A stretch of 36,073 nucleotides of DNA from Chloroflexota bacterium (GTDB taxonomy: Bacteria; Chloroflexota; Dehalococcoidia; Lucifugimonadales; Lucifugimonadaceae). Position 1 is the stretch's first letter. Every line of letters begins with the position of its first letter. The position numbers and the translations under genes are program-made. Shown here piece after piece: positions 546 to 14,544 of the stretch. The stretch is taken from the NCBI GenBank assembly GCA_018649665.1, contig JABIHL010000004.1, positions 1-36,073 on the forward strand, read 5' to 3'. The notes beneath the pieces are model-generated. The model searched no databases and was not told where the DNA came from. It was given only the letters and a program-made list of their open reading frames with translations.

Positions 546-1949
546 TTAGTCTGGCTTCGCGACCAACGTAGCGTGGCCTCGAATGTACTTGATTGGCTTA
601 GAAAGTAAGTTGAATTCCTGAACCTGCCACACCGACAGAACAGGGATCACACGGGTCATCATCATCACGATGAACGCGACGAGTGAAATTCCACCTGCCA
701 TGATCACAATGTCGAATATATCTGGCCAGTAAGTGGCTGGGATTTCCTTGAGCCACTTCTCGTGGATCTGGTCACCTGGTACTGACCATGCAGGCACGAA
801 CATGCGTATACGGTCGAGCATAAGACCAAGAAGAATTACAAATGATCCCATCACCATAGCGGTGGTCCCGCGACGTACCTTGTTCCAGATCAGGATCCAC
901 CATGGAACGAACCATAGGAGAATCATGGCTCCGAAGAACGCCCAGATCATAGGGCCCTTTATCTGATGGTTCAGGGTGGCGATATCGTTTTCCGACCTGC
1001 CGTACCAGAACACAATGAACGAGGAGTAGAAGAAGTAAATCCATAGCAGAGTCAACGCAAACAGCAACCGACCCAGCGACCAGAAAGCATCCAAATGAAT
1101 GTACTTCTCTAACTTCATGTACTTGCGTGAGAAGTAGAGGGCGATGACCACAGCAGCTACACCAGCCTGGAAGCCAGAAACCGTGTGGTACATGGGGAGA
1201 ATAGCGTCACGCCATCCCGGAACCATGCTTTGACCGAAATCGGTCGTAAACAAAAAGTTAGCGAATACGAGAATCAGGAAGTAGAAAGTTCCGAACATGC
1301 CGATACGCATTCGTAGCGTTCGCCACTGAACGTCGGTACCAACCCAACCACGAGCAAGGCGCTTACCCAAACGCTGACGCCAGCCAGTCGAGTGGTCACG
1401 CATTGAAGCGAAGTCAGGCAGTGCTGCAGAGTAAAACAACATGATGCCAGTGCCAAGAAGCATTACTAGTGCAAGTGTCGTCCAGAAGTGCGGCGAGTAG
1501 TCGGGAGCCGCGTACCAAATAGTTCGGCGTCGGGCGCCTTCAGTAACCAGCGGAGGCAGGATAGCCACCAGCGGGATAAGCATTATGAGAGTCACCACAC
1601 TCGCGAACGAAAATAGCGAAGCAATTCGGGTAATAGGTCGTACCCAGTTTGCTTTTGCCATTACAGGAGCCATGGCCACCATAGGTGCGCCACCAGCAAC
1701 TGAAAGCAAGAACGACACCAGTGCAGCAACGTAGCCCCACTTGGTGCTGTCGTCACCCTGATTGATGAATTTGATGACGAGTGCAGCGATACCGGCAATC
1801 GAAAGAATACCGAGGATCCACACCCACGCCTTGAAACGACCGCTTGCACCAGTGGTGGTTGCGACCAATTCTGTCGAGATCACGTCTGCAGCCACCTGAG
1901 GTGGTGGTGCGTGATGCTCGGCTTCATGTGCTACAGCTTGACTAGCCAT
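546..1949 (-). CDS. actF: Alternative complex III membrane subunit, ActF-like (NrfD family)
   Basis: A 467-residue polytopic membrane protein with about ten hydrophobic segments, after a hydrophilic His-rich N-terminus (residues 1-40). It resembles ActF, the second NrfD-type quinone-binding subunit of alternative complex III. The telling stretch is LGRLLFALTLLWIYFFYSSF followed by IVFWYGRSEND, matching the family pattern LGKLLFAF-x-x-FWAY-x-x-FSQF-x-x-IWYAN-x-x-EE. The ATG at 1949 is preferred over one 13 codons upstream because it overlaps the end of actB2 by 8 bases (atggctag), as expected for translational coupling. It precedes actC here, whereas the usual operon order places actF after actC to actE. 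It could instead be a duplicated ActC-type subunit, but the motifs fit ActF better. Confidence 0.75.
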   Translation of the reverse strand: MASQAVAHEAEHHAPPPQVAADVISTELVATTTGASGRFKAWVWILGILSIAGIAALVIKFINQGDDSTKWGYVAALVSFLLSVAGGAPMVAMAPVMAKANWVRPITRIASLFSFASVVTLIMLIPLVAILPPLVTEGARRRTIWYAAPDYSPHFWTTLALVMLLGTGIMLFYSAALPDFASMRDHSTGWRQRLGKRLARGWVGTDVQWRTLRMRIGMFGTFYFLILVFANFLFTTDFGQSMVPGWRDAILPMYHTVSGFQAGVAAVVIALYFSRKYMKLEKYIHLDAFWSLGRLLFALTLLWIYFFYSSFIVFWYGRSENDIATLNHQIKGPMIWAFFGAMILLWFVPWWILIWNKVRRGTTAMVMGSFVILLGLMLDRIRMFVPAWSVPGDQIHEKWLKEIPATYWPDIFDIVIMAGGISLVAFIVMMMTRVIPVLSVWQVQEFNLLSKPIKYIRGHATLVAKPD

Positions 1950-2688
1950 GCGTTGCAGCTTCTCCCGCGCCGACCTTCTTGTCAGCATCGATCTTCGCTA
2001 GGTAGATAACGTTAGGGTCAGTTCCGAACTGGTCGAGAAGCGTGTAGTGACGCTTGTCTTCCTTCATCTTCGAAACCTTACTTTCAGGGTCATTGAAGTT
2101 TCCGAAGTTTAGTGCACTCGTCGGGCAAGCAGATGAGCATGCAGTTTGAACTGCGCCATCAGCAATTTCGACACCGGCACTTCGGGCGTTGCGTGATTCT
2201 CGACGGATACGGTGCACACAGAAGCTGCACTTCTCCATGATTCCACGGCTTCGGACTGTTACATCAGGGTTGAGGTGGTTGCGGAGAGATTCCGGCCACA
2301 CAGGCTCCCAGTAGTTGAAGAACCGAACAATGTAAGGGCAACCGTTTGCGCAGTATCGGGTACCAACACATCGGTTGTATACCTGAACGTTCATGCCTTC
2401 CGAGTTGTGGTAGGTGGCATAAACCGGGCAAACGGGCTCACAAGGTGCGTTCTCACAGTGTTGACACATGATCGGGATGAACCGAGCTTTTGCATCAGGG
2501 AAGTCGCCTTCCCAGTATCGTTCAACACGAATCCAAGAAATCGATCGAGCTCGCTCGACACGATCCTGGGTGTTGATCGGAATATTGTTTTCTGCCTGAC
2601 ATGCGATTACACATGCGTTGCAACCGATGCACTTGTCGACATCGACAACCATGCCCCAGTTGTGGGTTCCAAATTCAGCTGTTGTCAT
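1942..2688 (-). CDS. actB2: Alternative complex III iron-sulfur subunit ActB2
   Basis: A 248-residue ferredoxin-like electron-transfer subunit carrying four iron-sulfur cluster motifs. They are CIGCNACVIAC near the N-terminus, CQHCENAPCEPVCP, CVGTRYCANGCPY, and CSFC with CSSACPTSA. The third has Thr where a four-cluster ferredoxin would have Cys. This CVGTRYC form is typical of ActB and fits a [3Fe-4S] cluster, the others being [4Fe-4S]. In most characterised alternative complex III operons this domain is the C-terminal part of one ActB of about 1000 residues. Here it is a separate gene just after actB1. A GTG start at 2709 is possible, but its Shine-Dalgarno spacing is very short. The ATG at 2688 has AAAGG about 10 bases upstream and is preferred. 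The 3' end overlaps actF by 8 bases. Confidence 0.9.
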   Translation of the reverse strand: MTTAEFGTHNWGMVVDVDKCIGCNACVIACQAENNIPINTQDRVERARSISWIRVERYWEGDFPDAKARFIPIMCQHCENAPCEPVCPVYATYHNSEGMNVQVYNRCVGTRYCANGCPYIVRFFNYWEPVWPESLRNHLNPDVTVRSRGIMEKCSFCVHRIRRESRNARSAGVEIADGAVQTACSSACPTSALNFGNFNDPESKVSKMKEDKRHYTLLDQFGTDPNVIYLAKIDADKKVGAGEAATHG

Positions 2689-2721
2689 TGGGCTACTGCC
2701 TTTAGGCACTGGTCCTGCATA

Positions 2722-5034
2722 TTACTCATGGTCGCCAGACTCCTTGCCTTCACCGAGGAACTGTTCTTGGTACAGGTGATGGTTATCTGTCTGCACATCG
2801 GATGCGGTCTCGCCGATACCAACTACCAAAACAGGTACACCCGGTTCTATCGGTCGTGCTTCCACGTTACCTTCGAACTTCGGAACCTTGACCCGCTTGC
2901 CTGCTCGCTGAACTTTTACTCGAGTTGCAGCCCATGCGAGGGCGCCGGTCTCTGAATCTTTCTCGTCTACGAGAATAGAAAGAACATTTGAACCGCGTTC
3001 CTCAGCGTATCGACCGCTTCTGCGGTGACCTTGTCCCATAGGGATTCCGATCACGCCGGGGCGAACGCCGGGGTGTGGGTAAGCGAGGACTTCGATCTCA
3101 CCTGAGGTTGAACGAATCAAAAGGACGTCGCCTTCTTTGATTCCGAGCTCATCAGCCTGAATGCTGTTGATCTCTCCCCAAGTTGACCATGAAGCAGATG
3201 AAATAGGGTCGGGCGTCTGCTGTGCCCAAGGAGCGGCAGCGAGCCGACCGTCTAACAGTGAGTTAGAGAGAAACGGAACGAGGTGGAAGTCATTGCCTTC
3301 ACCAAGCGATCCGGTTTCTGAGTAGTTGGCACTCTGTGCCGATGTGGCTACTTTGCCTACGCTACTTGAACCACTGTTTTTAGTGTCCCACCAACCACCA
3401 CGCTGCAGAGCACCGTTGGTGAAGAGAGACGATGATGATGCCGATACCGATCCACGTCCTGTCGAGTGAAGCTCGGAAAGTGCACCACGAACAAGGCTTT
3501 CCATGTCTCGACCGTAAGAACCGTCTGACATAGCGAGTAGCGTGTCGCCGAATCCACGGGCGTCACTGATGAGCCCCGATTCGTCCCGTGAAATAGTTGG
3601 ACCTACGACCGGCTGCTGTGTACCAACAACTTGATACCCAGGGCCTGGTTCTGGAATTTCGGTTCCCCATGACTCCAAGAAAGTCTCTTCAGGAAGAATG
3701 AGGTCAGCGAAATCCATCGTGTCGTCATGTATCGCACCGAATGCGATGACGTTCGGAACGTTTTCGAGAGCTTCACGAATAGCCACTGAGTTGGGCATTC
3801 CATGAACGATGTCGGCACCACGAATGATGACCGTTTCGACGTTACCCGCTCGCCAGTTGGCGATCTCCTGTTCCCATGCTTCGAATGAAGCACCGGTTGC
3901 AGATGCTGGAACATCGTCTATTGCTGATCCTGGGTTGGAAGTAATTCCGCCCTTAGAATCGACCGCACCAACCAAAATGTTCAGTGCGTAGATTGCTCCG
4001 AGATTGAAACTACCGTTGGTGTGAGCACCGGCCGAGCCGCCACCGAAGGCGACCGAAGGTGTGTGCTCTGCGAAATGTTCGGCAGCTTTCTTGATTCGAT
4101 CTGCATCGACGCCCGTTCGGGCTGCAACGTCACTGAGAGTCACATTCCTGACACCTCCGGGAATTGCTGCTTCAAATGCCGCAACGTTCGAGGCGCTGAC
4201 GAGCCCTTCATCGATGATGACCGATGCGATACCAAGTGCGAGGTGACCCTCAGTACCTGGAACAGGGGCAAGCCATAAGTCGGCAGCGGCAGCAGTCAAA
4301 GACATACGAGGCTCGGCGTGAATCATGTATCCACGGTCACTCTGCTCGCGGAACTCACCGTACTTCACACCGAACTGGGTTGGTGATCCCCAAGTGCCGA
4401 GCCAGTCGGCACCGAAGGACAAAACTGTCTGTGCGTTAGAAATATCAAATGTAGGGAGCTGGTCTTGACCAAGAACCGATTTTACCGCTCCGTGGAGCAC
4501 GCCCTGTTCAACAGGATCGAACGCCATGTGCTTGCCGTTGTACTGTGCAGCAAACTTGCTAGCAACGCTGCCCAAATGTCCTCGGAGAGGGTTGGTGACA
4601 ACTGTTAGCGCACCGTCGGCGTTCTTAAGAGCTTCGGTGAATCGTGCTTCTGCCTGATCCCAAGAAGCATTAACAAGATTTCCAGCTTTGGAATACCGAA
4701 GTTGCGGGCTACTAATACGATCGGGGTGGTAAAGAAGCTGTAGAACCGCGTCGTACCTAGCTGTTGCCTTGCCGCGAGTTACAGGGTGATCGGGGTTTCC
4801 CTCGATCTTCTTTGCCCGACCTTCCATGACACGAACAAGCACGCCATCACCGTTGGAGAAATCTCCCATTGAAGTTGCGTACCAAGCGTCCTCACCCCGT
4901 ACCAAGTCTTCTGGTAGGTCTACAGGGCTCTGAACAATTAACTCGCGCTCGGGTAGTCCGCAGGCTGCAAATATCACAGCTCCGACTGCCGTTTTACCGG
5001 TAAGCGCTAGGAATTCTCGTCGATTTAGCTTCAT
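2722..5034 (-). CDS. actB1: Alternative complex III molybdopterin-oxidoreductase-like subunit ActB1
   Basis: A 770-residue protein of the molybdopterin oxidoreductase fold corresponding to the large N-terminal domain of ActB. The start is set at MKLNRREFLALTGK. This gives a Tat-type signal (RREF) followed by a hydrophobic stretch ending in FAAC-GLPE. That Cys may be lipidated, as reported for ActB of other alternative complex III enzymes, although Phe at -3 is a non-standard lipobox residue. No N-terminal Cys motif for a [4Fe-4S] cluster is seen, as expected for ActB, which does not bind molybdenum cofactor. The C-terminus contains the dinucleotide-binding-like barrel (around GEINSIQADELGIKEGDVL). 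The stop lies 33 bp before the preferred actB2 start. In vivo it should sit outside the membrane with ActA and ActB2. Confidence 0.9.
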   Translation of the reverse strand: MKLNRREFLALTGKTAVGAVIFAACGLPERELIVQSPVDLPEDLVRGEDAWYATSMGDFSNGDGVLVRVMEGRAKKIEGNPDHPVTRGKATARYDAVLQLLYHPDRISSPQLRYSKAGNLVNASWDQAEARFTEALKNADGALTVVTNPLRGHLGSVASKFAAQYNGKHMAFDPVEQGVLHGAVKSVLGQDQLPTFDISNAQTVLSFGADWLGTWGSPTQFGVKYGEFREQSDRGYMIHAEPRMSLTAAAADLWLAPVPGTEGHLALGIASVIIDEGLVSASNVAAFEAAIPGGVRNVTLSDVAARTGVDADRIKKAAEHFAEHTPSVAFGGGSAGAHTNGSFNLGAIYALNILVGAVDSKGGITSNPGSAIDDVPASATGASFEAWEQEIANWRAGNVETVIIRGADIVHGMPNSVAIREALENVPNVIAFGAIHDDTMDFADLILPEETFLESWGTEIPEPGPGYQVVGTQQPVVGPTISRDESGLISDARGFGDTLLAMSDGSYGRDMESLVRGALSELHSTGRGSVSASSSSLFTNGALQRGGWWDTKNSGSSSVGKVATSAQSANYSETGSLGEGNDFHLVPFLSNSLLDGRLAAAPWAQQTPDPISSASWSTWGEINSIQADELGIKEGDVLLIRSTSGEIEVLAYPHPGVRPGVIGIPMGQGHRRSGRYAEERGSNVLSILVDEKDSETGALAWAATRVKVQRAGKRVKVPKFEGNVEARPIEPGVPVLVVGIGETASDVQTDNHHLYQEQFLGEGKESGDHE

Positions 5035-5099
5035 CTGGTCAGTGGTGTTCCTGTTGTCGCAGTTTATAACTGAGACCGGGTAGTACCCGAGTAAATTTC

Positions 5100-5804
5100 C
5101 TAGTAGTGGCAAGCCGCACAGTCGGTCGGTGCACCGTTATCACGGTGGCAATCGACACACTGGCCCATTTTGAGAGATTCAACCTGCTCGACCTGCTGCA
5201 TAGCTGCGACGTTTCCGTGACAGGTTGAACAGACGCCGGAAGGTCCTTCAGTAACACCATCAGTAGAGTTTTTGACTTCCGATGGGTTAGCGGTGAGATA
5301 TCGAATGTGAGGTTCGTGAACGAAACGTACGTGGTCGGGTAAGCGATGGACACGCTGCCAGTTGACTGGTGAAGCTCCGTCGTCGCCAACAATGTCTGCT
5401 GCGTCTCGTAAGATCGTCAGCGGAACGTTGTCTGCAGCACCAATCACTTGGTGACATGTTGCACAGAAATTTACTGCTGGAACGCCGGCGTTTGCCTGAG
5501 TGGTGACAGTTCGATGGCAGAAAGTACAGTCGAGACCAAGACCTTCCATGGTCTGACCATCGGCTGCGACACGATCGAGCTGTTTAGTAGAGGCGTGAAC
5601 CGTATGCGGGAAGTCGATTGGTTGATCGAAAGTCTGTTCGAATCCGAGTACCGGAACCGGCTGACCGAGCCAGCCAGTGATTATAAATGCTGCGACTACA
5701 CCCATCACGGCAACTACACCGAGACCGCCAATAGCCAATACCGGCACAAGCATCTTAGGTAAAGATGACGATTTGGAGTTCGAGTTATCGTTTTCCGGCG
5801 CCAA
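5100..5804 (-). CDS. actA: Alternative complex III pentaheme cytochrome c subunit ActA
   Basis: A 234-residue membrane-anchored multiheme cytochrome c. One membrane segment lies near residues 19-44 (MLVPVLAIGGLGVVAVMGVV). Five CxxCH haem c sites follow: CTFCH, CATCH, CSTCH, CVDCH and CAACH, the last almost at the C-terminus. Five haems and one anchor match ActA of alternative complex III. It probably relays electrons from the ActB iron-sulfur clusters to the periplasmic acceptor. The start codon is TTG at 5804, supported by GGAAAG six bases upstream. Many extra histidines (for example FPHTVHA, VHEPHIRYL) are candidates for second axial ligands. It lies between the small membrane protein gene and actB1. 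Confidence 0.93.
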   Translation of the reverse strand: MAPENDNSNSKSSSLPKMLVPVLAIGGLGVVAVMGVVAAFIITGWLGQPVPVLGFEQTFDQPIDFPHTVHASTKQLDRVAADGQTMEGLGLDCTFCHRTVTTQANAGVPAVNFCATCHQVIGAADNVPLTILRDAADIVGDDGASPVNWQRVHRLPDHVRFVHEPHIRYLTANPSEVKNSTDGVTEGPSGVCSTCHGNVAAMQQVEQVESLKMGQCVDCHRDNGAPTDCAACHY

Positions 5805-7282: not shown

Positions 7283-9160
7283 CTAACGATTGCGTACATT
7301 CGGTAGGCAGAAGCTGTTCGAGCATCGAACAGCTTTAAGATTCCTCGAAGCCACATCGTGATATATCACCAAAGGAAGACCGTCGGAACCGATCGTGATC
7401 GACGTGTGCTGACCGGCTAATGCAGATGTATCGACATCTACAGATGTGGCGTTTGTGCAGGCAATGTCGTCGCAGTGTGCGATTTCCAGAAAGCCGTTGA
7501 ACGAATCGTAGTAGCTGATGATTGCTCGCCCGTCGGTTCCGATTGTCATCGAGTTCCAGTCGCCAACACCACCACTGGTTACAGTTGCGGCCGTGGTCGA
7601 TGCCGAGCACGACATGTTTGAACAGTGGGCAGTTTTGAGATCGTTGCTCGTCACGTCGAAGTAGCTGACGAGCGCTCGACCATCGATACCGATAACGATA
7701 GAAGTGTCTTTACCGACATCGCCTGCGGAATCGATAATTTCATTCGTGCTGGTAGTGCAAGCCAAGTTCGAACAGTGTGCAACTTTCAGTGCTGTATTGG
7801 TCACATCGTAGTAGCTGATGATCGGGAAGCCGTCGGCTCCAATAGCAAGTGATGTATAGCGCCCAACGTCGCCGGTTTCATCGATGACGTTGATATCAGC
7901 CGAAGTGCAAGCCGTGTTGTTGCAGTGCGCAACTTTCAGGTTTCCGTTTGTCGTGTCGTAGTAGCTAGCGACACCTAGCCCGTCTGTACCGATTGCGATC
8001 GATGTGTACGCTCCAACGTTCCCTGTTCCCTCGATAGTCGTCTTGGAACTGTTTGCGCAGCTGATCGTCTGACAGTGGGCTATCTTGAAATCGGAACTGG
8101 TTGAGTTTTTGTAAGCGATCAGAGGCAGCCCGTCGGTTCCAATTATCACCGATGCATGCAAGTCGCCAGACCCAGTGCTTTCAACAATAGAAGGTGTGGC
8201 AGAAGTGCATGAAACGTCGTCACATTGGGCGAGATAAAGAGCATTGTTCGCTTCGTAGGCGAGCACTGGCAGACCGTCATCGCCGATAGTCACCGAGTTC
8301 CATAATCCTGCGTCACCGGGGCCGATCACGAGGGTGGTATTCACGTGCTTGGCACGCTGAAACGGAACAGTTTCGTTGGACGATAGCGTGATACATACGA
8401 GATTTCCGGTAGCGTCAATTCCGACTGCTACCAGACCCGCACCGCACGATTGACTCGATATTGCGTAGTCGCCGCTGGATGGCCCGGCATCACCACAGAC
8501 CCATGTCGAACCGTTAAAGATGGCTATCTCGGATGAACCGCAGTTCATTCCGCCGAGGGTGGTGTTGAGTGCTGCTGGACGATTGAGAATTTCGTTCCAG
8601 TTCACTGCTTCCAGACTATCGTCGCCATCGTCTAATCCAGCAGGTCGATTTACGATGTCGTCCCATTGGACTGAAGAAGCGACACCACCGGAGCTAAGGT
8701 CGCCCGGGACACCTGTAATCGATTCCCAAGCAACATCGGCAGTTCCCGCTGCCAGTTCGAGCGCTGTGAAGTAGTCGGCGTCGTGATCGTGGTCGCTTCG
8801 CGCAACTGTATTCGCTTCACCTGTACCGTCGAAATCTACTGAAGCTACATCACCTTCGATAGCGCCAGCAGTGGTGAGTCCAGGACCTATCGCGAGAACA
8901 CCTGATTTTCCATCGTCTCCTGATGCTCCAGTCAAGCCTTTAGGCCCTCGTGATCCTTCCGGGCCGGCCACTCCGGGGAAGCCTTGAAGACCGGTCGAGC
9001 CAGCAGGTCCTTCAGCGCCAATTTTACCTTGGGCCCCGGCAGGTCCCTGCGGTCCAATCTCGCCTTCGCTTCCTCCACACGCAATAACGACCATTAGTGC
9101 TAATGCGAGGGCAAGAATCGTGATTCCGGATTTCGAGGGCTGAGTAACTCGATGATTCAT
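7283..9160 (-). CDS. Lipoprotein with collagen-like stalk and seven-repeat probable beta-propeller
   Basis: A 625-residue predicted surface lipoprotein. The signal peptide ends in a lipobox (VVIAC) around residue 29. It is followed by about 19 Gly-X-Y triplets (GPQGPAGAQGKIGAEGPAG and on), a collagen-like rod. A middle section contains VARSDHDHD and two WxxIxNRPAxL motifs of the type found in fibre and tail proteins, then a Cys-containing linker. The C-terminal half is seven repeats of about 50 residues with the core TSIxIGxDGLPLISYYD followed by LKVAHCxxxxC. Seven such units suggest a seven-bladed beta-propeller, and every unit carries a C-x4-C pair. It is likely an exported adhesion or glycan-binding protein. 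The ATG at 9160 is preferred over a GTG four codons earlier. Confidence 0.8.
   Translation of the reverse strand: MNHRVTQPSKSGITILALALALMVVIACGGSEGEIGPQGPAGAQGKIGAEGPAGSTGLQGFPGVAGPEGSRGPKGLTGASGDDGKSGVLAIGPGLTTAGAIEGDVASVDFDGTGEANTVARSDHDHDADYFTALELAAGTADVAWESITGVPGDLSSGGVASSVQWDDIVNRPAGLDDGDDSLEAVNWNEILNRPAALNTTLGGMNCGSSEIAIFNGSTWVCGDAGPSSGDYAISSQSCGAGLVAVGIDATGNLVCITLSSNETVPFQRAKHVNTTLVIGPGDAGLWNSVTIGDDGLPVLAYEANNALYLAQCDDVSCTSATPSIVESTGSGDLHASVIIGTDGLPLIAYKNSTSSDFKIAHCQTISCANSSKTTIEGTGNVGAYTSIAIGTDGLGVASYYDTTNGNLKVAHCNNTACTSADINVIDETGDVGRYTSLAIGADGFPIISYYDVTNTALKVAHCSNLACTTSTNEIIDSAGDVGKDTSIVIGIDGRALVSYFDVTSNDLKTAHCSNMSCSASTTAATVTSGGVGDWNSMTIGTDGRAIISYYDSFNGFLEIAHCDDIACTNATSVDVDTSALAGQHTSITIGSDGLPLVIYHDVASRNLKAVRCSNSFCLPNVRNR
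7286..8330 (-). repeat. Seven tandem repeats of about 150 bp within the propeller lipoprotein
   Basis: Each unit encodes about 50 residues built on IGxDGLPLxxYxD and AHCxxxxC. The repeats have diverged at the DNA level but keep shared words such as gtagtagctgatgat and gaacagtgtgcaac on the plus strand. They explain the internal repetition of this stretch. Confidence 0.75.
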
Positions 9161-9461
9161 GTAATTCCACACTGAATATCTGGGTTGGTGACGCGATTAG
9201 ACATGTGCTCGTGCGTACATGACGCGATTGCTTGGATTGTACTGTCGCCCAGAAATTCGGTTCAGTTCAAACCCATTACCGGAATTAGATGACCATTCGG
9301 TCTTTACTGGGAAATTATTTAGATTTTGAAATGCACAGTTCGATAGAGGTACGAAAGAGGCTGTTCGCTATATCCTTCTCTTCGTTCGGCTCTTGTGGTC
9401 ATCCGTGGGTCTACGAATTGGCTTATTCTGTGTGCACAACGACAAAAGGATTCTCATAAGA
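9161..9461. other. Divergent intergenic region without a recognised gene
   Basis: This 301 bp gap separates the minus-strand lipoprotein from the plus-strand TrpB2-like gene, so promoters for both should lie here. I found no well-matched -35/-10 pair, terminator or repeat. AAAAGGA at 9444-9450 is a ribosome binding site candidate for the downstream gene, 11 bases before its ATG. Confidence 0.5.
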
Positions 9462-10826
9462 ATGGCAACTGTTACTGGCAACCGAATTACGCTGAACCCT
9501 CGTGAAATGCCTTCCCGTTGGTACAACGTTGAGGCCGATCTGCCGTTCAGAGTTCCGCCGATGATGTCGCCTTCCGGATATCCAATTACCGCTAGAGAAC
9601 TCGCTCCACTGTTTCCTAAACAGATAATCGAGCAAGAGCTAAACGCCAAAAGCCGCACGTTCAACATCCCTAAGGAAGTGAAACAGGCATATCAGCAGTG
9701 GCGGCCGACTCCCATGTTCCGGGCTACGGCTCTCGAAAAGGAACTGGGTACTACTGCCAAGCTGTTCTACAAGGTAGAAAGCGGGAGTCCGAGCGGATCA
9801 TATGAATCGAATACCGCAATTCCGCAGGCGTACTACACGAAGAAGGCGGGTGCCGACGGAATTGTTACGGGCGGAGCCGGAGGCGTCTGGATCAGCGCTA
9901 TCGGTCATGCTGCTTCACTGTTTGGGCTCGAGAGCCGCGTTTACAGCGTTAGAAAGCTCGGTTCTGATCGGGCTCGGGGCGATGCATACGGTCGGGTTTG
10001 GGGAGTTGATGTACAGGCAAGTCCATCGGAGAACACGCGAGTAGGCAAGCATCAGTTCAAAAAGGAAGGCGCTGATTCTGGATCGATCGCAACTGCGCTG
10101 GCAGAAGCTTACGAAGAGGCGACACTCAATCCGAACGTGAAATTTGCGATTCCTACCTTGATGGGCAACACGCTTATTCACCAAACGATCGTTGGACTCG
10201 AAGCTCAACGACAATTGGCTGCAGTAAACGAAGCGCCGGATCATGTCATCGGATCTATCGGGGCCGGATCGCACTTCGGTGGTCTTATCGCTCCGTTTAT
10301 TCCGGCTCGAATCCAAGGTCGTAATACAAGATTTGTCGCCGTTGAAGAATCTTCTTCACCGAGCCTCACACGCGGGGTCTACACCGAAGAGTCTGCCGAT
10401 GCAGCCGGTCTTATGCCGCAAGTGCCGATGTACACACTGGGACGTGAATACTCACCGCCGGGAGTACTGGCAGGGGCAATGCGATATCACGGTGTAGCTC
10501 CTATCGTTTCATCGCTTTATCGAGAGAAGTACATCGAGGCTGTGGCTCACGGACAGATCGAGTCGTACAGCGCTGGTCTGATGTTCACTCGTGCGGAAGG
10601 AATCGTTCTTTCACCTCATGCCATGTACACCGTTAAAGAGGTGATAGAGGAGGCATTGCGTGTGAAAGAAAAAGGAACCGACGACACAATTTTGTTCACG
10701 GTTACTCCAGCGATCAATGCTGAATCGTCGCCATACGATTCGCTACTCGACGGAGTTATGCACGATGAGAAACCTGAAGAGGCTTCGCTGAAGAAGTCAC
10801 TGGGTCGATTTATCGGTCGCGGCTAA
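9462..10826 (+). CDS. TrpB2-like fold-type II protein lacking the PLP lysine
   Basis: A 454-residue protein clearly homologous along its whole length to TrpB2-type tryptophan synthase beta chains. Shared elements include MPSRWYNVEADLP, ELAPLFPKQIIEQE, WRPTPMFRATALEKELGT, IGLEAQRQL, GSHFGGL, SLTRGVY, MYTLGREYSPPGVLAGAMRYHG and a late AEGI. The active site is rewritten. The PLP-lysine motif SGSHKINTA reads SGSYESNTA, so E115 replaces Lys. The loop ETGAGQWG reads GGAGGVWI, so G137 replaces the catalytic Glu. The phosphate loop is GAGSH, the later PAPES-x-HA is LSPHAMY, and the C-terminal SGHG is TPAI. It is therefore unlikely to make tryptophan. It may be a pseudoenzyme or a new catalyst. The ATG at 9462 matches the TrpB2 N-terminus. 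It precedes the E1 genes on the same strand. Confidence 0.9.
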   Translation: MATVTGNRITLNPREMPSRWYNVEADLPFRVPPMMSPSGYPITARELAPLFPKQIIEQELNAKSRTFNIPKEVKQAYQQWRPTPMFRATALEKELGTTAKLFYKVESGSPSGSYESNTAIPQAYYTKKAGADGIVTGGAGGVWISAIGHAASLFGLESRVYSVRKLGSDRARGDAYGRVWGVDVQASPSENTRVGKHQFKKEGADSGSIATALAEAYEEATLNPNVKFAIPTLMGNTLIHQTIVGLEAQRQLAAVNEAPDHVIGSIGAGSHFGGLIAPFIPARIQGRNTRFVAVEESSSPSLTRGVYTEESADAAGLMPQVPMYTLGREYSPPGVLAGAMRYHGVAPIVSSLYREKYIEAVAHGQIESYSAGLMFTRAEGIVLSPHAMYTVKEVIEEALRVKEKGTDDTILFTVTPAINAESSPYDSLLDGVMHDEKPEEASLKKSLGRFIGRG

Positions 10827-11009
10827 TTCCAGTCGATAGTTTTGCTCCGCACAGCGCTTCACGATGCTAAAGTTCTCGTGTCGTAACGCCGGTCGCTATC
10901 TGACCATTCGAATTCGACCAATGTCTTGATCTGAAATATGCGCTTGAGTAGGGCTGATTGCCCGCTGAAGTCACCAAAGCACCAAACGGTTAGCCGGAGG
11001 CACTTAAAG

Positions 11010-12008
11010 ATGGATATCTCCAAAGAGAAGCTGGAGTGGATATACACGACGATGTATCGAATCCGCCGCTTCGAGGAGACGATGCTCGAACAGACCCTTA
11101 AAGGAAACTCGATGGGTGTGGCACACACATCCGACGGGCAGGAAGCACCTCCCACCGGAATCTGTGCGCACCTAACCGACAAGGACTGGATCGGCTCGAC
11201 TCACCGTGGGCACGGTCACTGCATCTCTAAGGGTCTCGAAACCGACAAGATGATGGCTGAAGTGTTCGGTAAGGCGACAGGCCAGTGCGGCGGCAAGGGC
11301 GGCTCGATGCACATTTCCGACTTCTCGAAAGGGATGCTCGGAGCGAACGGCATTGTAGGAGCTTCGATTCCACTGGCAGTTGGTGCAGCATTGACTGCAA
11401 AGCTCAAGGGCATCGAGCACGAGTCAGTCGGAGTTTCGTTCTTCGGCGACGGTGCTTCTTCACAGGGTGTACTTCATGAATCAATGAACCTCGCTTCTGT
11501 CTGGAAGCTCCCGGTTATTTTTGCTTGCGAAAACAATGGCTACGCCGAAGCGACACCTTCCTGGTACGCCGTTTCCGCTGAAGACATTGCCTCACGAGCC
11601 GAGGGCTACGGAATGCCCGGTATCGTTGTGGATGGCATGGATGTATTCGCCGTCTACGACGCAGCGGGTGAAGCAATTGCACGAGCCCGTGCGGGTGAAG
11701 GTCCAACATTCATCGAGATGAAGACTTACCGGTACCACGGTCACTTCCACGCCGACGATACAAGCAAGTACCGAAAGCCAGAAGAAGAAGAGTTTTACAA
11801 GAAGCTCGACGCCATTAAGCATTTTGAACGAACTGTTTCCAAGCAGAAGCTGATGACAGAAAAGAAGATGAAGAGCATCCGTGATTCCATCGAACAGGAA
11901 ATGCTTCACGCTGTTGAGTTCGCTTTGAATAGCCCTATGCCGGACATTTCGACTCTGTATGACGATGTTTACGTCAACTACTCGAACCCAATTGCGGGTC
12001 TGCGCTAA
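11010..12008 (+). CDS. Thiamine-diphosphate dehydrogenase E1 alpha subunit (acetoin/pyruvate type)
   Basis: A 332-residue E1 alpha chain of a 2-oxoacid or acetoin dehydrogenase. The N-terminus YTTMYRIRRFEETMLEQ is the family signature, followed by THRGHGHCISKG and GGKGGSMHISD. The thiamine diphosphate and magnesium motif starts at G146-D147 (GDGASSQG) and ends at ENNGYAE (N175, N176). That loop sequence and GMLGANGIVGA resemble AcoA of acetoin dehydrogenases more than branched-chain enzymes. The start at 11010 has CCGGAGG nine bases upstream. The E1 beta gene follows after 66 bp. No lipoyl E2 or E3 gene is in the window, so the complex must use partners encoded elsewhere. The exact substrate is not determined by sequence. 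Confidence 0.9.
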   Translation: MDISKEKLEWIYTTMYRIRRFEETMLEQTLKGNSMGVAHTSDGQEAPPTGICAHLTDKDWIGSTHRGHGHCISKGLETDKMMAEVFGKATGQCGGKGGSMHISDFSKGMLGANGIVGASIPLAVGAALTAKLKGIEHESVGVSFFGDGASSQGVLHESMNLASVWKLPVIFACENNGYAEATPSWYAVSAEDIASRAEGYGMPGIVVDGMDVFAVYDAAGEAIARARAGEGPTFIEMKTYRYHGHFHADDTSKYRKPEEEEFYKKLDAIKHFERTVSKQKLMTEKKMKSIRDSIEQEMLHAVEFALNSPMPDISTLYDDVYVNYSNPIAGLR

Positions 12009-12074: not shown

Positions 12075-13145
12075 ATGACGACCTCACAAGCAAATAACCC
12101 GCTAGGACCCGGATACGACGGTGTCGCGGGCTCGGAGATGCGATTCCGAGACATTTTCCGTGACACGCTACGAGCGGAAATGAACAGAGATGATGATGTG
12201 TTCCTGATGGGCGAAGACATCTCAGGTGGCTTCGACAAGGACACCAAAGAACCACTCGACGCGTGGGGCGGGCCGTTCGCTGCCACTAAGGGATTGGTTC
12301 AAGAGTTTGGCGTTGAACGCATTCGTGATGCACCAATTTCCGAAGCCGGATTCGTTGGCGCAGCCGTAGGTTCCGCATTAACTGGCATGCGCCCAGTTGT
12401 CGACCTTATGTACTTCGACTTCGTAACTGTGGCGTTCGACCAGCTGCTTTCAAATGCAGCCAAGAGTCGCTACATGTTCGGTGGGCAGACCAAGGTCCCG
12501 TTGACCTTGTTTGCACGTTCAGGCGCAGGCACGGGGCACGCGGCTCAGCACTCAGAGAGTTTCTACTCGATGCTGGCGCACATTCCTGGGCTCAAGGTAG
12601 TAGTTCCTTCCGATCCTTATTCGGTGAAGGGCTTGCTCGCAGCAGCAATTCGTGACGACGATCCAGTATTCCTCGTGAACGATAAGAAGCTAATCAACCT
12701 CACCGGATTTGTTCCTGACGAGGATTACGTTATCGAGCTCGGCAAGGGTCGCTACATGCGACGCGGAACCGACGTAACGTTGGTTGGCATGTCGTACACA
12801 TCGGTTGTATGTCAGAAGGCTGCCGAACAGCTTGCTGAAATCGGAATCGATGCTGAAGTGATCGACATGATGTCGCTTTCACCGTTCGATGAAGACATCC
12901 TCATCGAGTCGGTTGCCAAGACGAACAATGTAGTGATCGTCGATGAGGACACTCCTCGCGCTTCGATGTCTTCAGAGTTTGCCGCAATTATTGCCGACAA
13001 GGCATTCGATCACCTCGATGCTCCTGTGAAGCGAGTCACCTCACCTCACTCTCCGGTTCCGTACAACAGTGCTCTCGAACAGGCGTTCATGCCTCAGCCG
13101 GCAGATGTTGTTGGAACGGTGAAGAACCTACTCGGACGAGAGTAA
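12075..13145 (+). CDS. Thiamine-diphosphate dehydrogenase E1 beta subunit (acetoin/pyruvate type)
   Basis: A 356-residue E1 beta chain pairing with the preceding alpha subunit in an alpha2-beta2 decarboxylase. Conserved features are VFLMGEDIS, RIRDAPISEAGFVGAAVGSA (the Glu that activates thiamine diphosphate), AAQHSESFYSMLAHIPGLKVVVPSDPY and the C-terminal domain ending in VTSPHSPVPYNSALEQ. The N-terminus is about 21 residues longer than typical. An internal ATG at residue 22 (MRFRDIFRD) would match the usual start, but GGAG abuts it directly, so the first ATG is kept. Where homologues usually read ENK, this protein has VNDKKL, which may affect specificity. A strong terminator follows 30 bp downstream. 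Confidence 0.9.
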   Translation: MTTSQANNPLGPGYDGVAGSEMRFRDIFRDTLRAEMNRDDDVFLMGEDISGGFDKDTKEPLDAWGGPFAATKGLVQEFGVERIRDAPISEAGFVGAAVGSALTGMRPVVDLMYFDFVTVAFDQLLSNAAKSRYMFGGQTKVPLTLFARSGAGTGHAAQHSESFYSMLAHIPGLKVVVPSDPYSVKGLLAAAIRDDDPVFLVNDKKLINLTGFVPDEDYVIELGKGRYMRRGTDVTLVGMSYTSVVCQKAAEQLAEIGIDAEVIDMMSLSPFDEDILIESVAKTNNVVIVDEDTPRASMSSEFAAIIADKAFDHLDAPVKRVTSPHSPVPYNSALEQAFMPQPADVVGTVKNLLGRE

Positions 13146-13174
13146 TAGTTCGTAGTCAAATAAGACTTAAATGA

Positions 13175-13211
13175 AAACCGGGTAGCTCGTATTGAGCTAC
13201 CCGGTTTTTTT
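13175..13211 (+). terminator. Intrinsic terminator after the E1 genes
   Basis: A perfect 14 bp stem (AAACCGGGTAGCTC with GAGCTACCCGGTTT) closes a five-base loop and runs into seven T residues at 13205-13211. It ends the 9462-13145 gene group. Confidence 0.92.
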
Positions 13212-13650: not shown

Positions 13651-14544
13651 CTAGCCCACTGGCATCTGACGGTTGGTCATCTTGCGTCCGACGGTTGCCT
13701 TCTCTTCGCCGCCACCGGAGAAGATGTTAGCGCCCATGTCGATAAGAACCTGAATGTTTCCAGCGTCGTCCTTGTTCGGGTCGTTCCAAGAGCATAGGAA
13801 CTTGAGACCATTACGGTCCGCAGCGCCCTTGATCTGTTCACGAACTCGGTTCATCTCTTCTGGGTACGGTGGGTCGTGAGCATCTGCCATTCCGAACGAC
13901 ATTCCCATGTCGCCAGGACCCCACTCAACGAACGCTAGTCCCGGCACTCGACAAATAGCGTCTGAATTGGCGGCCGATTCTTGATTTTCCAGCTTGAGAC
14001 CCAAGAAGAGTTCGCCTTCTGGGTTCAAAGGCCAAGGGTCGGCAATCTCGGTGTAGCGCTGAGGAGTTACGCCCCAAATTTCAGATGGCTGTTTCTGACC
14101 ACCGGCTCCACGCTGACCTTCGCCTAGCCCCTCGCGTCCGCTCTTGTGGAACGGGTATCGGCACTCTTCGATGAACGCACGAACGGCGTCGGCCTGTCGA
14201 GCGTGCGTGTGGAGAATTCCGTGAACTCCGGCAGAGAGGACTTGTCTGATCTGCCATGCATTAGCTCGAACTTCTTCGATGGTTCGGCAGTTGGACGGCA
14301 GTGTTGAGATAACAGCCGGTGTGCGGTGCCCAGCTTTGGTAGGCCCGCCATCGACGAGTCCTCTCATGAATTCCGTTAGGCCCGCAACATCGAAGGCGTG
14401 GTGCTCGAAATCGGTAATGAGGAAGTCGGCCCAAGTGCTTGCCTGCTTCAGTCCATTTTCGTACGTCAGATCACCGGTTCCGGTGTAGTAAACCGGTTCT
14501 CCGGATTCGATGAGTTCAATAACTCGGTTGATTCGTTTTACCAT
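13651..14544 (-). CDS. HpcH/HpaI aldolase / citrate lyase family protein
   Basis: A 297-residue member of the metal-dependent class II pyruvate aldolase family (HpcH/HpaI), which cleaves or forms carbon-carbon bonds next to pyruvate-like enolates. Family features are FLITDFEHHAFD (for the usual WxxIDxEH), SAGVHGILHTHARQADAVRAF, the GREGLGEGQRG stretch that aligns with the GxRGxG region, the metal-ligand Glu in GLKLENQES, and the Asp in FVEWGPGDMGMSFG. A tail of about 50 residues ends in GEEKATVGRKMTNRQMPVG. The ATG at 14544 has AGGG about seven bases upstream. It stands alone between the repeat-rich region and a divergent gene, so its substrate is not suggested by context. Confidence 0.85.
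   Translation of the reverse strand: MVKRINRVIELIESGEPVYYTGTGDLTYENGLKQASTWADFLITDFEHHAFDVAGLTEFMRGLVDGGPTKAGHRTPAVISTLPSNCRTIEEVRANAWQIRQVLSAGVHGILHTHARQADAVRAFIEECRYPFHKSGREGLGEGQRGAGGQKQPSEIWGVTPQRYTEIADPWPLNPEGELFLGLKLENQESAANSDAICRVPGLAFVEWGPGDMGMSFGMADAHDPPYPEEMNRVREQIKGAADRNGLKFLCSWNDPNKDDAGNIQVLIDMGANIFSGGGEEKATVGRKMTNRQMPVG

Follow-up and report, generated by a model that had tools for sequence, protein, structure and literature searches.

We identified a TrpB2 homolog in which Glu takes the place of the PLP-binding lysine. Sequence comparisons strongly support the proposal, made in a first-pass annotation of this DNA, that a gene kept intact has lost its PLP-lysine chemistry: the lysine-less proteins form one clade, the gene is under purifying selection, and no conserved substitute lysine was found. 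Because an internal aldimine could not form at the usual place, TrpB-type PLP catalysis by this protein appears very unlikely. Strong selection has preserved the Glu-containing copy, which therefore probably has another function, and gene order tentatively points to a partnership with a thiamine enzyme encoded next downstream.

The gene lies in a 36,073-nucleotide stretch of DNA, hereafter the window (contig JABIHL010000004.1, positions 1 to 36,073, forward strand, of assembly GCA_018649665.1, a Chloroflexota bacterium of the family Lucifugimonadaceae). The source genome (2.65 Mb, 180 contigs) is 86% complete. Among named relatives, the closest are SAR202 Dehalococcoidia assemblies, one of them being CP046147, the complete genome of Candidatus Lucifugimonas marina JH1073.

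A TrpB2 scaffold with an altered active site

The gene and the altered elements of its product are as follows.

9462-10826, plus strand: TrpB2 homolog without the PLP lysine, intact, 454 amino acids (translation, profile match, structure match and dN/dS)
9792-9818, plus strand: SGSYESNTA, residues 111-119, with Glu115 for the PLP lysine (codon GAA, 9804-9806) and Tyr114 for the preceding His
9870-9890, plus strand: GGAGGVW, residues 137-143, mostly ETGAGQW in K-type (lysine-containing) TrpB2; the catalytic Glu and the Gln are gone
10260-10274, plus strand: GAGSH, residues 267-271, equivalent of the phosphate loop GGGSN
10611-10631, plus strand: SPHAMYT, residues 384-390, APExxHA in K-type TrpB2 (the ES-x-HA element)
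10698-10715, plus strand: TVTPAI, residues 413-418, mostly xxSGHG in K-type TrpB2, with TPAI at 415-418

Translation gave a single open frame. The protein matched NF009057 (TrpB2/PRK12391, "TrpB-like pyridoxal phosphate-dependent enzyme") over residues 7-443 with 452 bits against a cut-off of 366, bearing out the earlier view that the TrpB2 scaffold is kept from end to end. A second TrpB2-type model, TIGR01415 (trpB_rel), scored 393 bits, under its cut-off of 519, and the closest solved structures were TrpB chains (6hul, 4qys and 6hte). The likeness to TrpB2/PRK12391 covers the whole length and includes the WRPTP, GxGS and RYHG elements, whereas the PLP lysine, catalytic Glu, Gln142, Glu386, His389 and SGHG element are replaced. 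Since the NF009057 cut-off is passed, automatic annotation would probably name a PLP enzyme, even though a whole clade lacks the residue by which PLP enzymes are defined. All 15 other loci of the genus align from residue 1, which supports the start at 9462 and makes a longer TTG start at 9393 unnecessary.

Translation and alignment confirmed each substitution reported at first pass, i.e., Glu115, GGAGGVW with Gly137, and altered ES-x-HA and SGHG elements. Among 88 aligned TrpB2 rows, some of which are one gene under two identifiers, the lysine column contained Lys in 61, Glu in 26 and Gln in one; all three TrpB1 rows had the lysine. The catalytic Glu at column 137 was present in 32 of 34 K-type rows, the exceptions being two Streptomyces plasmid rows (L112 and L115) with Gly at this position and the PLP lysine kept. 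The former adjoins an acyl carrier protein gene, and the latter adjoins a gene for a phosphopantetheine-binding protein, near an adenylate-forming enzyme.

Two grades of lysine-less proteins, a basal grade and the window lineage (ten rows each), were present in the residue comparison. Changes at 115, 137 and 142, together with Tyr for His389 of the ES-x-HA element, were found in all 20 rows, Glu115 itself in 19, and the SGHG element was altered in most rows of both grades; in total, the residue type at 19 columns differs between the lysine-less and the K-type rows. The basal rows have Glu (nine) or Gln (one) at 115, Ala (six) or Gly (four) at 137, and Glu (nine) or Asp (one) at 142, where Gln occupies all 34 K-type rows; they also all keep Glu386, which was lost only in the window lineage. 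All ten window-lineage rows contain Glu115, Gly137, Val or Leu at 142, and His271, the last seen in no other row of the comparison, and lack Glu386. The proposal of a coordinated loss at four sites therefore needs correction, because relatives show intermediate steps: all four sites are altered in the window protein, but the comparison indicates that the active-site change was stepwise, from the basal grade to the window lineage. It was also an overstatement that the whole PLP active site had been rewritten. Three of the five phosphate-loop residues (Gly267, Gly269 and Ser270) are retained in all ten window-lineage rows, and Gly269 and Ser270 in all 20 lysine-less rows.

Only Lys104 and Lys227 occur in at least 90% of the lysine-less rows. 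Both are common in K-type rows as well (34 of 34 and 20 of 34, respectively), so neither is a candidate for a new aldimine, and the residue comparison revealed no lysine that is conserved in lysine-less rows yet rare in K-type rows. An aldimine formed through a substitute lysine was thus rejected, there being no candidate specific to the lysine-less proteins.

Pocket positions were more conserved than the rest of the protein in the window lineage: 21 of 25 were invariant, compared to 182 of 429 elsewhere, in ten rows from two genera (Fisher p 4.5e-5), for a list of positions that we chose after the motifs were known and drew from presumed contacts in Salmonella TrpB. A similar contrast was seen in the K-type rows under a less strict criterion (95% conservation), with 19 of 25 pocket positions and 91 of 429 others. 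For this choice of positions, a pocket in use is favored over a bare scaffold.

Conservation and purifying selection

The gene was present in 16 of 19 genomes of the window genus, and the 15 other copies are 82-96% identical to the window protein. The SGSYESNTA motif is identical in all 16, including that of the cultured Ca. Lucifugimonas marina. For the window gene and 14 orthologs (L038 was left out), dS was below 2 in 14 of 105 pairs, and these gave a median dN/dS of 0.027 (range 0.017-0.050); synonymous sites are saturated in most pairs, which makes this value approximate. Motif codons varied only synonymously in these 15 copies, with Glu115 encoded by GAA in 14 and by GAG in one. Catalytic residues have been lost and the gene has been maintained, the combination expected of a TrpB-derived pseudoenzyme. 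The earlier argument against sequencing error and decay holds: error is rejected by the same residue in orthologs from separate assemblies, including CP046147, and decay by purifying selection and the purely synonymous variation of the motif codons.

Distribution and phylogeny

Profile and pattern searches detected lysine-less TrpB2 in at least 32 Dehalococcoidia genomes. These include three genera of one family, namely the window genus (16 of 19 genomes), g26 (five of seven) and g4 (two of four), and nine further genomes from six other families of the class, the ninth copy (L186) being cut by a contig end. In a 393-genome sample of the class, at least 16 genomes had a lysine-less copy among the top-scoring loci and pattern hits. 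The motif pattern gave 27 matches in 26 of these 393 genomes, 15 of them TrpB-like, compared to seven for the reversed control, and it missed one known member (G254, motif GGGHE). Outside the class, none was lysine-less among the best 30 loci of 400 phylum genomes and seven of 14 plasmid records.

In a tree of 53 rows, a single branch (100/100) separated 27 lysine-less rows from the rest, with a program warning that the long branches of L083 and of the window lineage may have been grouped falsely. A second tree (57 rows, including five of the 16 rows of the window genus and 34 of the 61 K-type rows) was rooted on TrpB1 and built after five motif regions had been taken out of the alignment. It contained one clade of 20 lysine-less rows (100/100), with a bootstrap that had not fully settled. 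Repeated loci were counted once (L033-L047 repeat L004-L018); L060 and L061, which duplicate L019 and L002, were omitted. With the motif columns removed and the clade still at 100/100, the simplest reading of the sequences is one old loss of the PLP lysine. We are unsure of the position of L083 within the clade. The clade lies on the TrpB2 side of the TrpB1 root, and the trees fix no branching point among the K-type rows. In the 57-row tree, a long stem (0.99 changes per column) leads to the window lineage; together with strong constraint on the present genes, this is consistent with a new function that was acquired and then fixed.

Paralogs and tryptophan synthesis

The source genome encodes, elsewhere, a TrpB1 with a normal motif (635 bits) and a K-type TrpB2. 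The trpA gene was over the cut-off in all 40 relatives and lies on a different contig (C36) from the lysine-less gene (C128). A role as substitute for a missing tryptophan synthase was thus rejected, and, with all three genes present, the lysine-less gene is unlikely to be retained for tryptophan synthesis. K-type TrpB2 was not seen in seven of the 16 genomes of the window genus that have the lysine-less gene (these assemblies are incomplete). In two genomes of this genus, the K-type copy looks broken and the lysine-less copy is intact (G014:C1:63203-64508 and G009:C10:105425-106681); the signs are two pieces and one internal stop.

The K-type TrpB2 genes of the source genome (L061) and of G021 (L062) and the lysine-less copy of g4 (L060) are each less than about 1 kb from a member of one gene cluster, which had galactonate-dehydratase (enolase superfamily) matches in L060 and L061 and was recognized in L062 by similarity only.

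The E1 alpha/beta neighborhood

Three features follow the gene on the same strand.

11010-12008, plus strand: E1 alpha of a 2-oxoacid dehydrogenase (profile matches; open frame starts at 10938)
12075-13145, plus strand: E1 beta, the partner subunit (profile matches)
13173-13209, plus strand: terminator-like 17-pair stem with T tract, 3' of E1 beta (consensus scan)

Both E1 genes are intact homologs. The E1 alpha start (MDISKEKLEW at 11010) was judged from where the alignments of relatives begin, and the protein scored below its NCBIfam cut-off (342 vs 394 bits). By eye, the stretch GDGASSQG..NN resembles an intact form of what we take to be the TPP-binding motif. Between the TrpB2 homolog and E1 alpha, the only terminator-like site was one of five pairs (10820-10835). 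The same consensus scan found no promoter-like site before the TrpB2 homolog, and its four terminator-like sites were not above the 4.4 expected from shuffles, so these genes are at most a candidate operon.

The E1 alpha and beta genes were directly downstream in all 20 testable loci of the window lineage, which comprises two genera about 60% identical in the TrpB2 homolog. Among the 15 named loci of the window genus, 14 have both genes downstream on the same strand, and L038 ends at a contig edge; all five g26 loci share the gene order of the window, with E1 beta cut by the contig end in L100. The gap to the start of the E1 alpha match was about 60-250 bases in 18 of the 20 loci and about 860-890 in L033 and L035. 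In L035 (Ca. L. marina), a 241-residue frame without a Pfam match (7372-8097) lies between the two genes.

Within the window genus, an E1 beta ortholog occurred in all 16 genomes with the gene and was missing from two of the three without it (G001 and G003). G006, of the same genus, has E1 alpha/beta at the same locus without the TrpB2 homolog, which is therefore not essential to E1. In G020-G024, of other genera, and in G019 with less of this context, E1 alpha/beta likewise lies beside the same upstream genes with no TrpB2 homolog there. An older locus has therefore either gained the gene or lost it. The source genome has three E2 genes, all on other contigs (two of which carry other E1 beta paralogs), so the E1 considered here is without an adjacent E2.

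Ten basal loci (L060, L156 and L101-L108) had no E1 neighbor within the flanks examined, some of which were short. A link to E1 was thus rejected for the lysine-less clade as a whole, being seen in the window lineage only, and a partnership with E1 cannot explain the origin of the clade.

Possible functions

We tentatively prefer, at somewhat below an even chance, a re-purposed pocket in an accessory partner of the downstream E1. The former active site would still be under selection for a different ligand, probably held by the GxGS loop together with the new groups Tyr114-Glu115-Ser116-Asn117 and His271. In the SAR202 window lineage, gene order suggests that the protein may be a regulatory or structural partner of the E1 alpha/beta thiamine enzyme and that it might sense or present a small acid related to the E1 substrate. 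Several lines of evidence support this proposal: an invariant motif with synonymous variation and low dN/dS, one clade with no new conserved lysine, a pocket more invariant than the rest, E1 alpha/beta next downstream in every testable locus with shared presence in the window genus, TrpB1 and K-type TrpB2 elsewhere in the genome, and no E2 beside E1. It is weakened by the fact that gene order is not interaction, and by the wide gap in two loci and the intervening frame in one of them.

The main alternative, itself somewhat unlikely, is a PLP-independent enzyme. Glu115 would form an acid-base pair with His271 in the window lineage, or with Glu/Asp142 in the basal grade, and act on a substrate that is not an amino acid, for instance a sugar-acid breakdown product then taken by E1. 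New charged groups, not simple loss, characterize the lysine-less proteins (at 115 throughout nearly the whole clade and at 142 in the basal grade), and the conserved pocket, for a list chosen afterwards, also fits. A convergent gene (13651-14544), which has no Pfam match and only a faint likeness to an aldolase (28 bits, well short of the cut-off), occurs nearby in 13 of 15 loci of the window genus, in one via a 60-residue match only. Cultured SAR202 bacteria are reported to break down sugars and sugar acids (PMC10444878). However, the second charged residue is not common to the two grades, Glu142 having been lost and His271 gained, which makes one common reaction doubtful. A wider form of this idea is slightly less likely again: the ancient Dehalococcoidia TrpB branch would be a family of PLP-independent enzymes using Glu with a new acidic residue or His, and one SAR202 branch would have been captured upstream of the thiamine E1 as part of the same pathway.

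It is improbable that the protein binds vitamin B6 non-covalently, with PLP or PMP in the GxGS loop and Glu115 replacing the lysine, for storage, delivery or PMP chemistry. The retained phosphate-loop residues are consistent with such binding, but positions 114, 268, 271, 415 and 416, which we assume from Salmonella TrpB to be PLP contacts, are changed in the window lineage. Lysine-less B6 enzymes do exist: the PMP-dependent dehydratases of fold type I known as ColD and E1 (not the thiamine E1) have His for Lys and still bind B6. They share with the present protein a B6 fold without the Schiff-base lysine and differ from it in fold, in having His where Glu is found here, and in the retention of B6.

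That the protein is a bare scaffold, or that the gene is being lost, with no role for the pocket in either case, was already disfavored and is quite improbable. Several catalytic elements are gone, and three of the 19 genomes of the window genus lack the gene; on the other hand, dN/dS is about 0.03, the pocket is conserved, at least 32 genomes have a copy, and the broken-looking copy in two genomes is the K-type paralog. An assembly or sequencing error, for which a single base change from Lys to Glu would suffice, or an aldimine on a lysine elsewhere is hardly credible, given the recurrence of the motif in separate assemblies, including a complete genome, and the presence of both conserved lysines in K-type rows.

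Related systems

A close parallel to an accessory partner of E1 is TSB-like of eudicots, described, in the part of the paper accessible to us, as a TrpB-derived pseudoenzyme that acts as a non-catalytic partner and activates TSA (PMC12727527). Its key changes there are catalytic Glu to Ala and Asp to Glu, with no lysine change mentioned (PMC12727527). Both proteins derive from TrpB and have lost the same catalytic Glu; TSB-like no longer synthesizes tryptophan and instead assists a second enzyme (PMC12727527), a role only proposed here. TSB-like arose from plant TSB, whereas the present protein descends from TrpB2, has lost the lysine and is encoded next to a thiamine E1.

No description of lysine-less TrpB2 was found in literature titles or abstracts, mostly without subscription journals, and the available parts of a paper on TrpB2 evolution (PMC1854888) and of the cultured-SAR202 paper (PMC10444878) do not mention it. 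The graded relatives, from partial changes to a rebuilt pocket, amount to a natural experiment in how a cofactor-dependent fold leaves its cofactor, and the lineage is testable, since one of its members is a marine bacterium that has been cultured and completely sequenced (CP046147).

Other genes in the region

A 629-residue protein with a collagen-like triple-helix repeat at residues 34-91 is encoded at 7283-9172 on the minus strand of the window, and such a gene was found upstream of the TrpB2 homolog in 13 of 15 loci of the window genus. Further upstream (546-5804, minus strand) lies a set resembling Qrc menaquinone reductase, under curated cut-offs, which comprises a multiheme cytochrome, a molybdopterin-like subunit and a membrane subunit (weak match). 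Qrc-like parts also adjoin E1 alpha/beta in six of seven genomes without the TrpB2 homolog there. Among eight basal loci, an MscS channel gene within about 3 kb was the sole recurrent neighbor (four loci: L101, L102, L105 and L108), and two of these four loci also contain trehalose-related genes.
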